Source of the DNA: Rothia santali
GTDB lineage: Bacteria > Actinomycetota > Actinomycetes > Actinomycetales > Micrococcaceae
Direction of reading: 5' to 3'
Length of the DNA stretch: 64,000 nucleotides
Assembly: GCF_024199905.1 (NCBI RefSeq)
Contig: NZ_JANAFB010000015.1
Span: forward strand, 1 to 64,000
Shown: positions 45,646 to 48,917 of the stretch, piece by piece
How positions within the stretch are numbered: position 1 is the stretch's first letter
Layout: every line of letters begins with the position of its first letter
Made by a program: the position numbers and the translations under genes
The notes under the pieces: generated by a model
Seen by the model: only the letters and a program-made list of their open reading frames with translations
What the model was told of the DNA's origin: nothing
Databases searched by the model: none

Positions 45646-46719
45646 TCAGGCTCCCGTCCGCTCGGTGCCGGCCTCGCGGGGCGCCGGCTGCTGCTGGGTG
45701 ATGCAGTGGATGCCGCCGCCGAAGCGGAAGACGTCCCGGGCGTCCACGACCTCGACCTCCCGCCCCGGGTAGGCCTCCGCCAGGATGCGCGCGGCCTGCG
45801 CGTCCCGCTCCCCGCCGAAGCCGCAGAGCACGACGACGCCGTTGGCCACGTAGTGGTTGATGTAGGACCAGTCGACGAACTCGCCGTCCTCGACGATGGT
45901 CTCCGGGGCCGGGACGTCCACGATCCGCAGCGGCTCCCCCGCGGCGTCGCGCTGGCCCTCCAGGAAGGCGCGCAGCTCGCGGGTGACCGCGTAGTCGGGG
46001 TGGGCGGGGTCGTCCTGGCGGTGCAGGAGGATCGCGCCCGACGCCGTCGGGGCCGCCACGATGTCCACGTGCCCGCGGGTGCCGAACTCGCCGTAGTCCC
46101 GGGCCAGCCCGCGCGGCAGCCACACCGCGTGCCGGGTGCCGAGGCGGGCGTGGACCTCGCGCTCGACGTCCTCCGCCTCCAGGCCCGGGTTGCGGCCGTC
46201 GTCGAGCTGCACGGTGCGGGTCAGCAGCACGGTGCCCGCGCCGTCGACGTGGAAGCCGCCGCCCTCGTTGACCAGCTCGCTGGCGATCCGAGGCACCCCG
46301 GCCGCCTCGGCCATGGCCGCGCCGACGTGCTGGTCGTGCTCCCAGGCCGCCCAGTCCTGGGCGCCCCAGCCGTTGAAGACCCAGTCGACGCCGCGGACCG
46401 CGCCGGCGGCGTCGTGGACGAAGGTCAGGCCGGAGTCGCGGGCCCAGGCGTCGTCGAGCGGCACCGTCACCAGCTCGACGCCGTCCGCGGGCAGCGCCGC
46501 GCGCGCGGCGGCCTCGTCCCCGGGCGAGACGAGCATCCGGACCGGCTCGTAGCGGGCCACGACCGCGGCCACCCGGGCCCAGGCGGCGCGGGCGGCGGCG
46601 AGGCCCTCGGAGCCTTCCGGGCCGAAGGTCTGGTTGGCCGGGGGGAAGGCCATCCAGGTGCGCTCGTGCGGGGCCCACTCGGGCGGCATCGCGGTCCCGG
46701 GGGACGCTGACTCGGTCAT
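45646..46719 (-). CDS. aguA: Agmatine deiminase
   Basis: The 357-residue guanidino-modifying enzyme has all AguA signatures: PPEWAPHERTWMAFP, DDAWARDSGLTFV (catalytic Asp/His region), NEGGGFHVDG and the catalytic Cys in GGGIHCITQQQPA. It converts agmatine to N-carbamoylputrescine and ammonia. The ATG at 46719 has AAGGA; an upstream frame to 46737 is rejected. It is the first gene of a two-gene operon with the amidase. Confidence 0.94.
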   Translation of the reverse strand: MTESASPGTAMPPEWAPHERTWMAFPPANQTFGPEGSEGLAAARAAWARVAAVVARYEPVRMLVSPGDEAAARAALPADGVELVTVPLDDAWARDSGLTFVHDAAGAVRGVDWVFNGWGAQDWAAWEHDQHVGAAMAEAAGVPRIASELVNEGGGFHVDGAGTVLLTRTVQLDDGRNPGLEAEDVEREVHARLGTRHAVWLPRGLARDYGEFGTRGHVDIVAAPTASGAILLHRQDDPAHPDYAVTRELRAFLEGQRDAAGEPLRIVDVPAPETIVEDGEFVDWSYINHYVANGVVVLCGFGGERDAQAARILAEAYPGREVEVVDARDVFRFGGGIHCITQQQPAPREAGTERTGA

Positions 46720-46736
46720 GGCTGTGTCCTTCCTCA

Positions 46737-46760
46737 CCTAAATGAACACTATTCATTAGG
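46737..46760. promoter_or_regulatory. Palindromic TetR-type operator at the aguA promoter
   Basis: AATGAA-CACTA-TTCATT (46741-46757) is a perfect inverted repeat that extends, with one slipped base, to CCTA/TAGG on each side. It lies 22 bases before the aguA start, where it would overlap the promoter. Size and symmetry fit a TetR dimer. Confidence 0.6.
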
Positions 46761-46851
46761 CGGGACGGGAGCGGTCCTGTCAAGAGGCACGGGCCGGCCC
46801 GATCCCGCCGTCGCCGCCCCCACCGCCCTTCCGCGCCGCCCCCGGCCGTGC

Positions 46852-46857
46852 TAGAGT
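46852..46857 (+). promoter_or_regulatory. -10 box of the ABC-F leader transcript
   Basis: TAGAGT lies 41 bases before the leader ORF, and would start a leader of about 130 bases ahead of the ABC-F gene. Confidence 0.4.
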
Positions 46858-46892
46858 CGCCGTCGTTCGTGTCCCCTCACAAAGGCGATCCC

Positions 46893-46916
46893 GTGAAGAG
46901 TGCCCCTCTGCGCTGA
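46893..46916 (+). CDS. Seven-codon leader peptide of the ABC-F gene
   Basis: GTG-AAG-AGT-GCC-CCT-CTG-CGC-TGA encodes M-K-S-A-P-L-R and is preceded by AAAGG seven bases upstream, a good ribosome binding site. Codons 3-6 contain the sequence that can pair with the ribosome binding site of the ABC-F gene, so translation of this ORF should control that gene. Confidence 0.7.
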   Translation: MKSAPLR

Positions 46917-46994
46917 CCCGCTGAGCACCCGCACCCACCCGCCGCGCCAGGCCGGTGCCGCTCAGCATCCCATCGAGCTGAGAGGGGCACCACC
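46900..46994 (+). promoter_or_regulatory. Translational attenuator in the ABC-F leader
   Basis: Segment A, GTGCCCCTCT (46900-46909, inside the leader ORF), is perfectly complementary to segment D, AGAGGGGCAC (46981-46990), which is the ribosome binding site of the ABC-F gene seven bases before its ATG. Between them B (46920-46929) can pair with C (46954-46966, three-base bulge), making a nested closed structure. C can instead pair with 46977-46982 as CTCAGC/GCTGAG. A ribosome stalled on the leader ORF would cover A and free D. Confidence 0.7.
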
Positions 46995-48917
46995 ATGCCC
47001 GCGTCCACGAACACCCTTTCCTTCTCCTCCCTGAGCCTCACCTGGCCGGACGGCACCCCGTGCCTCCGGGAGCTCGACGCCGTCTACGGCGCCGGGCTGC
47101 ACGGCGTCGTCGGCGCCAACGGCTCCGGGAAGACCACGCTCGCCCGGCTGCTGCTCGGCGAGCTCGCGCCCACCTCCGGCACGGCCGCCGCGCCCGCCGG
47201 AACCCGCGTCCTGCGGCAGGACCTGGGGCTGCGCACCGCCTCCACGGTCGGCGAGCTGCTGGGGATCGCCCCGATCCTCGATGCGATCGAGGCGGTCGCC
47301 CGCGGGGAGGTGGACCAGCGGCACTTCGACGCCGTCGGCGAGGACTGGGACGTCGCCGAGCGGGCGGTCGCGGTCCTGCGGCGCGAGGGCCTGACCGGGC
47401 TGGTCCCGGACGGCGGGCCCGGGGGCCCGGGCGACCCGGAGGCCGCGCTCCGTCGCGGCGTGGGCACCCTCTCGGGCGGCCAGGCCGTGCGCGTCGCCCT
47501 GGCGGGGCTGCGCCTGACGAGGCCGGACGCGCTCATCCTGGACGAGCCGACCAACAACCTCGACGCCGCCGCCCGCGCCCGCTTGGCGGCGCTGCTCGAC
47601 GAGCTGCGCCGCCGCATCCCGATCCTCGCGATCAGCCACGACCGCGCCCTGCTGGAGACCTGCGACTCGATCAGCGAGCTGGCCCCCGCCGGCCCGCGGG
47701 ACGAGGCCTCCGGCCTGCGCCGCTTCGAGGGCGGCTACTCCGCGTGGGAAGCCGCGATCGAGGCGGAGCAGCAGACGGCACGACGCCGCGTGCGCGAGGC
47801 CCAGGCCGACGCCGACCGCGAGAAGCGGGACCGCATGGCCCAGCAGGTCAAGCAGAGCCGCGACGAGCGGCGCGGACGGAAGTTCGAGCAGACCAAGCGC
47901 AAGCCTCCCATCGCGATGGGCAACGACAAACGGTCGGCCGAGCGCAGCTCGGCGCGGGCCCGCGCCCTCATGGCCGAGCGCGAGCGCGCCGCCGAGGACG
48001 CCCTGAGCACCGCCGAGGAGGGCCTGCGGGAGACCGCGGAGGTCTACCTGGACCTGCCCGAGACCTCCGTCGGGGCGCGCACCCGCGTCCTGGAATTACA
48101 ACTCTCCGCGGAAGGGCGCGCGGACGACGACGCCGCCCGGGCCGCCGGCCTCGGCACGGAGGTCGAGCACCCGATCGTCACGGGCCCCGAGCACCTGCGC
48201 CTGGCCGGCTCCAACGGATCGGGCAAGACGACGCTGCTGCGGCGCGTCGTCGCCGCCGGGGACGCAGCCGGGTCCGGGGGCACCTCCACGGCCGGGGGCG
48301 CAAACGCATTCCGGGTAGGGGAAGCACCCGGGCCGGGAGAGGCATCCCGGCCCGGAACCACCGAGGCGCCGCACCTCCCCGGCCCGAGCTACCGGGTCGA
48401 GTCCCGGATCGGGCGCGTCGGCTACCTGCCGCAGCGGATCGAGCTGCCCGGGGATCTCACGGTGCTGGAGGCCGTGGCCGCGGCGAACCCCGTGGCCGCC
48501 GAGCAGGAGCTGCGGGACCGCCTCGCGCGCCTGCTCTTCCGCCGGGACCGGGTCTTCGCCGCCGTGGGCTCGCTGTCCGGGGGCGAGCGGTTCCGGGTCG
48601 CGCTGGCGAGGATCCTGCTGGGCGACCCGGCGCCCCAGCTGCTGATCCTGGACGAGCCGACCAACAATCTGGACCGGGCGACCGTCGACTGGCTCGTGGG
48701 GGCCCTGGCCGGGTACCGGGGCGCGCTCCTGGTGGTCAGCCACGACGAGGACTTCCTCGAGCGCGTCGGCGTGGACCGCACGGTGGACCTGGACCGCGTC
48801 CGGGAGGCGGCGGAGCCGGCCGCCGCGGAACGCCGGGAGGGAGCGGATCCGGCCGAGGGCGCGGCTCCGGCCGTGGGAACGGACCCGGCCGAGGAGCCGC
48901 GTCGCCCCCGGCCCTGA
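46995..48917 (+). CDS. ABC-F family ATPase, probable ribosome-protection/antibiotic-resistance type
   Basis: The 640-residue protein has two nucleotide-binding domains and no membrane segments, as in ABC-F factors that act on the ribosome. Domain 1: Walker A GANGSGKT (40-47), LSGGQ (159-163), DEPTNN (183-188). Domain 2: GSNGSGKT (405-412), LSGGE (527-531), DEPTNN (553-558). The linker (about 250-345) is long and highly charged, as in the P-site tRNA interaction motif. A Gly/Pro/Thr-rich insert (about 417-460) interrupts domain 2 after Walker A, which is odd. The leader attenuator is characteristic of antibiotic-induced genes. The drug class cannot be told. Confidence 0.88.
   Translation: MPASTNTLSFSSLSLTWPDGTPCLRELDAVYGAGLHGVVGANGSGKTTLARLLLGELAPTSGTAAAPAGTRVLRQDLGLRTASTVGELLGIAPILDAIEAVARGEVDQRHFDAVGEDWDVAERAVAVLRREGLTGLVPDGGPGGPGDPEAALRRGVGTLSGGQAVRVALAGLRLTRPDALILDEPTNNLDAAARARLAALLDELRRRIPILAISHDRALLETCDSISELAPAGPRDEASGLRRFEGGYSAWEAAIEAEQQTARRRVREAQADADREKRDRMAQQVKQSRDERRGRKFEQTKRKPPIAMGNDKRSAERSSARARALMAERERAAEDALSTAEEGLRETAEVYLDLPETSVGARTRVLELQLSAEGRADDDAARAAGLGTEVEHPIVTGPEHLRLAGSNGSGKTTLLRRVVAAGDAAGSGGTSTAGGANAFRVGEAPGPGEASRPGTTEAPHLPGPSYRVESRIGRVGYLPQRIELPGDLTVLEAVAAANPVAAEQELRDRLARLLFRRDRVFAAVGSLSGGERFRVALARILLGDPAPQLLILDEPTNNLDRATVDWLVGALAGYRGALLVVSHDEDFLERVGVDRTVDLDRVREAAEPAAAERREGADPAEGAAPAVGTDPAEEPRRPRP

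Follow-up and report, generated by a model that had tools for sequence, protein, structure and literature searches.

The ermC attenuator controls a methyltransferase gene, is induced by erythromycin together with a specific nascent peptide, and has an off-state in which its four RNA segments pair as 1:2 and 3:4. As we propose below for an ABC-F gene of Rothia, a ribosome that stalls on the ermC leader refolds the RNA and frees the ribosome binding site (RBS) of the gene (PMC10219788). The attenuation of ABC-F genes by short upstream open reading frames (uORFs) is already well known, for lmrC, are5sc, tiaA, cplR and vmlR. The ARE5 ABC-F gene lmrC of Streptomyces lincolnensis is induced via the ribosome by lincosamides, streptogramin A or pleuromutilins; its control, different from what we propose, is transcriptional with a mapped premature terminator, and loss of the uORF2 start makes expression constitutive (PMC8546547). 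In Streptomyces coelicolor, are5sc and tiaA are, like the gene analyzed here, ABC-F genes with a short uORF, and homologues with uORFs of their types fall in one clade with the present gene; the leaders read MLV and MVGDDDISG and come with predicted terminator/anti-terminator forms, are5scL1 starts with TTG, and tiaA is seemingly regulated at translation (PMC12421871). Ribosomes on uORFs of these two types (MLV and xGDDDISG) were reported to stall with lincosamide, streptogramin A and pleuromutilin, but not with erythromycin (PMC12421871). Stalling on the uORF also frees a hidden RBS in the ABC-F genes cplR (uORF MR[I/M], PMC10201436) and vmlR (uORF MIN, PMC9226507); these systems differ in that they belong to Bacillota, have three-codon uORFs, combine translation with transcription attenuation and contain intrinsic terminators (PMC10201436, PMC9226507). 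For vmlR, the variants MDN and MDK were as effective as MIN, and MRK was less so (PMC9226507).

The leaders described below have the form M(K/D)..., and they differ from those of tiaA and are5sc in that the codons of the leader itself pair with the RBS of the gene; in the window, moreover, 46650-47100 holds no terminator-like site that the scan could find. Neither this type of leader, nor its occurrence in Rothia, nor the leader:RBS lock was found in the papers that the literature searches returned, though the supplementary uORF lists of PMC12421871 may hold some cases; the peptides MKSAPLR, MDFSAAL and MDSAPL appear in no main text of the papers searched. With the present locus, antibiotic sensing through the uORFs of ARE5-like ABC-F genes would reach into Rothia, and perhaps into further Micrococcaceae. 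The genus Rothia includes species from the human mouth and airways.

The ABC-F gene and its relatives

The window (the whole stretch of 64,000 nucleotides from Rothia santali that was analyzed) contains on its plus strand, at 46995-48917, the gene proposed to be regulated. It encodes an ABC-F ATPase of 640 residues with two ABC domains (two PF00005 stretches), and the best NCBIfam model was NF000355 (ribosomal protection-like ABC-F) with 256 bits, below the cut-off of 380 bits; of the relatives, the MLV-type locus L055 stayed below the cut-off as well (338.9) and the xGDDDISG-type loci L079 (393.6) and L114 (382.7) passed it. The same gene was also found in the chromosome of Rothia amarae KJZ-9.

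We collected at least 80 homologue loci from genome contigs and examined the upstream DNA of 66, among which an MLV uORF was listed for at least 11 and an xGDDDISG-like uORF, defined by a loose pattern, for at least 14. Both uORF types are known from S. coelicolor, where they precede are5sc and tiaA (PMC12421871). A 75-protein tree places the Rothia genes and the MLV/xGDDDISG carriers in one clade of 66 rows (support 100/98), which also includes one Pseudoxanthomonas row, and we therefore call the gene ARE5-like; the ARE5 anchors in this tree are the uORF carriers that stand for are5sc and tiaA, not characterized ARE5 sequences themselves. Judged by its sequence the gene is an ARE5-like ABC-F and a predicted antibiotic-protection gene. 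The protein has a Gly/Pro/Ala-rich insert at about residues 420-460 (48250-48390) that is absent from several homologues, and its C-terminal tail is longer.

The leader and its predicted fold

A first-pass annotation of the window had proposed that the ABC-F gene is preceded by a seven-codon ORF with its own ribosome binding site, that this ORF holds the exact complement of the RBS of the gene, and that two further segments are able to pair as a stem, either nested or competing. All three elements were recovered, and all lie on the plus strand. The leader ORF (46893-46916; GTG AAG AGT GCC CCT CTG CGC TGA) encodes MKSAPLR, starts with GTG and is preceded, seven bases upstream of that codon, by the Shine-Dalgarno-like AAAGG (46881-46885), the two G of which are invariant in an alignment of 16 leaders. 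Segment A, GTGCCCCTCT (46900-46909), lies inside leader codons 3-6 and is the exact 10-base complement of segment D, AGAGGGGCAC (46981-46990), which makes up the RBS region of the ABC-F gene and overlaps the GAGG located nine bases before the ATG at 46995. Segment B (46920-46935; GCTGAGC, then GCACC) is the 5' arm of an inner hairpin in the minimum free energy (MFE) structure, and segment C (46954-46966; GGTGC, then GCTCAGC) is the partner of either B or D' in MFE folds with and without the leader masked; D' (GCTGAG, 46977-46982) has the sequence of part of B and runs into D from the 5' side. Folding of 46858-47010 gives an MFE of -58.9 kcal/mol (z -2.45), a stability that 5 of 200 shuffles reached. 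In this fold the inner hairpin joins GCTGAGC (46920-46926) to GCTCAGC (46960-46966), extended by GCACC/GGTGC, and the competing stem, an alternative to B:C, would join CTCAGC (46961-46966) to GCTGAG (46977-46982). The predicted off-state of the window is of the form 1:4 plus 2:3, unlike the 1:2 plus 3:4 of ermC.

Exact 10-mer complements at the spacing of A and D are common in the GC-rich window (72.6% GC; on the plus strand there are 26 start positions, which fall into 21 runs), so that the window alone is insufficient to settle the A:D pairing, although A/D is the sole complement on either strand with one arm in a short ORF and the other at the start of a long one (at least 150 codons). That the pairing is more than chance follows from the comparison with homologues given below, and not from the window by itself.

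A terminator scan of 46650-47100 returned no intrinsic-terminator-like stem with a U run, and control of translation is therefore favored. The strict sigma-70 scan of the same region returned no promoter-like site; by eye, a putative extended -10 element, TGCTAGAGT (46849-46857), could serve the leader transcript, and it has identical bases in locus L010 and similar counterparts at like distance in some other Rothia loci. The single Rfam match in 46600-47200 (E up to 1) was a microRNA family on the other strand, whose 22.8 bits fall short of the gathering score (100). An inverted repeat, CCTAAATGAACA...TATTCATTAGG (46735-46765), is situated between the ABC-F leader and the agmatine-deiminase-like gene that diverges from it on the minus strand; the repeat has a near-identical stretch in L010 and is a candidate operator for the minus-strand genes.

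Leaders within Rothia

We searched 35 Rothia genomes, that of the window included, and recovered an ABC-F homologue in 29 (E <= 1e-40), 22 of which carry a short GTG/TTG leader 77-103 bases upstream of the ABC-F start. The encoded peptides are MKSAPLR (2 genomes), MDSAPLLAIR (2), MDSAPLAPIG, MKSAFVSA, MKSAFVSAIS, MDLLPLSR, MDSAAFIR, MDFSAAL with its AVL/ATL forms (10 together), MDSQTLSA, MDTVAL and MDSAPSA. GTG or TTG is the start codon in 41 of the 43 loci compared. When 16 of the 22 Rothia leaders were aligned, 10 columns were invariant; they include both G of the Shine-Dalgarno sequence, the last two bases (TG) of the start codon and the middle base of codon 2. A conserved arrest peptide was not found among the Rothia leaders, the peptides of which vary widely while the pairing persists.

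The remaining seven genomes with the gene lack a leader of the M(K/D) type (L030, L031, L032, L034, L036, L121 and L122, the last of which has no start that we could find). The first five of these form a paralogue group with a different leader that branches inside the clade of leader carriers, and leader types have therefore changed within Rothia; L121 and L122 were left unassigned. In the 260 bases upstream of the gene, the paralogue group has a short ORF as its leader (MTHRA, MNSSRA) and a stem that terminates in a run of T (GCTCGGGTTTTTT in L030), an arrangement that looks like a transcriptional attenuator.

Conservation of the leader:RBS pairing

We determined how well each leader pairs with its own RBS and with those of other loci in a swap test that used one score per leader type and covered 17 of the 22 Rothia loci (the near-copies L021-L025 were omitted) and 26 others; the same 17 Rothia leaders were used for single folds, ribosome masking and duplex scores. 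For the nine Rothia leader types the cognate pairing averaged -17.6 kcal/mol versus -12.1 kcal/mol for swapped pairs, a difference that was reached in 2 of 20,000 permutations, and the own RBS was the best partner for six of the nine. With all 18 leader types (Rothia and others) the values were -15.2 versus -10.4 kcal/mol and none of 20,000 permutations reached the difference. In Rothia, control pairings with the stretch before the leader and with the first codons of the gene had no effect (15,378 and 4,404 of 20,000 permutations), nor had they any over all 18 types (13,567 and 7,797). When it was the spacer (B to C) that was swapped against the RBS, the permutation counts out of 20,000 were 0 over the 18 classes, 19 within Rothia and 1,026 outside it.

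The test was repeated with leaders picked by a script (best Shine-Dalgarno sequence, 5-12 codons), which agreed with the choice by eye in 17 of the 22 Rothia loci and took another ORF in L012, L015, L016, L021 and L026. Over all 22 Rothia loci the own pairing was still better (23 of 20,000). Outside Rothia the script found a candidate in 39 of the 49 loci of the family (15 clusters), and there the cognate pairing was not significantly better than the swapped one (-9.86 versus -9.23 kcal/mol; 2,782 of 20,000); for nine non-Rothia classes whose leaders had been picked by eye the count was 44 of 20,000 permutations, a result to which we give less weight than to the script-picked one.

The compensatory changes can be followed in the leaders of L009 (MKSAPLR) and L012 (MKSAFVSA): of the first ten pairs, five are unchanged, three are changed on both sides and still paired, one is changed on one side to U-G and one is broken. 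Pro-Leu (residues 5 and 6) is replaced by Phe-Val between these two leaders, and therefore it is the RNA, rather than the peptide, that is kept. At the level of sequence these comparisons establish that the leader:RBS pairing is maintained by compensatory change in Rothia, and its conservation across the wider family, where the script-picked test gave no significance, is likely. The first-pass annotation had reasoned that failure of homologues to keep the A/D pairing or the leader ORF would speak against it, and had suggested a search for compensatory changes: such changes were found, and both leader and pairing are kept in Rothia. RNAalifold on a MAFFT alignment of 16 leaders returned no common structure, because the arms sit in different alignment columns, and single-sequence folds and swap tests were therefore used.

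Predicted off-states and the position of the ribosome

In the single folds of the 17 Rothia leaders the RBS pairs with A in 10, two of which (L026 and L029) show this pairing only in part; in the other seven it pairs with C, and there A:B forms a separate hairpin. Both off-states (A:D, and A:B with C:D) largely hide the RBS, and since L011 and L013 have the same leader and opposite off-states, the two states must be near in energy. Rothia leaders have, in these folds, alternative structures that hide the RBS and are kept by selection.

When a ribosome was placed with its P site at leader codon 1, the RBS became freer, as measured by its mean unpaired fraction, in 13 of the 17 leaders (in L018 only by 0.01) and no freer in L013, L014, L028 and L029. 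For the RNA of the window this fraction went from 0.00 to 0.30, so that folding with the leader occupied, as had been advised at first pass, does free the RBS, but the opening is partial. We compared the real spacers of 16 leader classes with shuffled ones (60 shuffles per class and 5,000 resampled sets; equilibrium folds). The rise with an early ribosome was 0.239, versus 0.136 with shuffled spacers (reached by 16 of 5,000 resampled sets), and the RBS was freer with an early than with a late ribosome by 0.089, versus -0.017 with shuffled spacers (1 of 5,000). Among the nine Rothia classes, the gain with an early ribosome exceeds that of shuffled spacers only weakly (281 of 5,000), and the early-over-late difference was reached in 11 of 5,000. 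In the class of the window the free fraction of the RBS was 0.01 without a ribosome, 0.35 with an early and 0.37 with a late one, and shuffled spacers performed as well as the real one (0.04, 0.37 and 0.39). The modeled window RNA would thus display the lock and its release without late closing, and with a predicted opening that is partial.

A probable translational attenuator and its alternatives

We consider it probable, at roughly three chances in four, that the leader is a cis-acting translational attenuator, in which a lock between leader and RBS is opened by a ribosome that a drug has stalled at the first codons. With no ribosome on the leader, A (codons 3-6) would pair with D around the inner hairpin B:C and the gene would be silent; some relatives would use the other off-state, A:B with C:D, which is predicted to be more stable. 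After normal passage of a ribosome the locking structures would re-form. A drug that holds the ribosome on the first codons would cause its body, whose edge is some 16 bases away from the P site, to cover A, upon which D would no longer be masked, B:C could form, the RBS would be free and the ribosome-protecting ABC-F could be made. Translation of the leader, stalling, the class of drug and the direction of the switch are parts of this scheme that we infer. The drift of the peptides, their short length and the kinship with ARE5 suggest drugs that prevent the first peptide bonds from being made, and by analogy with the described systems the inducers are probably lincosamides, streptogramin A or pleuromutilins.

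The erm-type logic that had been put forward for this locus holds as far as translational attenuation is concerned, given the leader, the kept A/D pairing and the lack of terminator-like sites in the scanned region; arrest of the erm or msr type, in which a macrolide or ketolide together with a specific nascent peptide would stall the ribosome inside the leader and so free the RBS, is improbable, because the peptide is no conserved arrest peptide. Such arrest would use the same four-segment logic, and a leader of seven residues might reach the upper tunnel, but the peptides vary (MKSAPLR, MKSAFVSA, MDSAPLLAIR, MDLLPLSR, MDFSAAL, MDTVAL) and the Arg/Lys-X-Arg/Lys motif is absent from MKSAPLR. 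There is equally little reason to expect transcription attenuation, by which alternative stems would end or continue transcription and pairing of the RBS would be a by-product. Actinobacterial terminators may lack a U run, which leaves some room for this explanation, and the reports on lmrC (PMC8546547) and are5sc (PMC12421871) describe control at transcription; yet the region 46650-47100 yielded no terminator-like site, the arm preserved by compensatory change is the RBS itself, and for the related tiaA a transcriptional reporter is reported to be constitutive and a translational one regulated (PMC12421871).

A coupling that needs no drug, where translation of the leader alone opens the RBS and the gene follows the rate of initiation or starvation, is unlikely but deserves some weight: any ribosome over A breaks A:D, nearly all leaders begin with GTG or TTG (41 of 43), and in the class of the window the RBS is equally free with a late and an early ribosome (0.37 and 0.35). 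The average RBS is freer early than late, however, both in the 16 classes (1 of 5,000) and in the nine Rothia classes (11 of 5,000). Chance pairing in GC-rich DNA, or a spurious ORF that happens to contain generic anti-RBS codons, would fit the 21 runs of 10-mer complements in the window and the non-significant script-picked test outside Rothia. It is nevertheless extremely improbable, since in Rothia own pairs exceed swapped ones even with script-picked leaders (23 of 20,000), compensatory changes occur, and the columns of the leader Shine-Dalgarno sequence and start codon are invariant.

For the attenuator with an early, drug-dependent stop, which we prefer, a more elaborate version can be put forward tentatively, and we think it somewhat less probable than not: the leader would read the position of the stall in three states, with the RBS locked by the leader (A:D), D' letting C reclose after ribosomes have passed, and an early stall alone opening the structure, in a leader class of the whole family (Micrococcaceae) with a free peptide and a fixed pairing. 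If true, this might extend to the leader on a Corynebacterium jeikeium plasmid gene too. Peptides that drift while the pairing is kept offer a direct way to ask whether the peptide matters in sensors with an early stall, and the Rothia leaders are natural variants for mapping at which codon a stop switches the gene on.

Leaders beyond Rothia

Within the family Micrococcaceae a homologue was present in 83 of 295 genomes and 12 of 32 genera (E <= 1e-45). Outside Rothia, 62 genomes of the family had a match, and the DNA upstream of the gene was read for 49 loci from 47 of them; in 24 of these loci a leader of the M(K/D)-like class could be assigned by eye, such as MKIWFAFA, MLVVLAFA, MKTVRTLR, MDPARSLR and MDSFLA; the remaining loci have other short ORFs or none that could be assigned. 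L124 and L128, of the sister group of the Rothia genes, carry MKLAGSL further upstream, with pairing energies of -13.7 and -13.6 kcal/mol. The shortest leaders chosen by eye pair weakly: MKI (L038) with -5.9 and MKIRS (L039) with -8.1 kcal/mol.

The latter locus is the ABC-F gene of the C. jeikeium plasmid pA505, which branches among the Rothia genes. At this locus (L039:2162-2227) the gene has the candidate leader MKIRS and a recombinase gene next to it, and this neighbor together with the position within the Rothia branch is a sign of transfer.

Other candidate leaders were noted before further homologues. Three-codon candidates of other actinobacteria are MRI (L050), MIF (L076 and L090) and MNI (L097), and MRI is also the published leader of cplR in C. 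difficile (PMC10201436). The Brevibacterium loci L091 and L098 have GTG AAG TAA within about 65 bases upstream of the gene, a possible two-codon leader. Another leader class (MLIYDR..., MWIYNE... and similar peptides) was seen by eye in L064, L134, L135, L142, L165 and L166, and several loci of this class have a CGCTGA / TCAGCG / GCTGA-type design of repeats upstream of the ABC-F gene.
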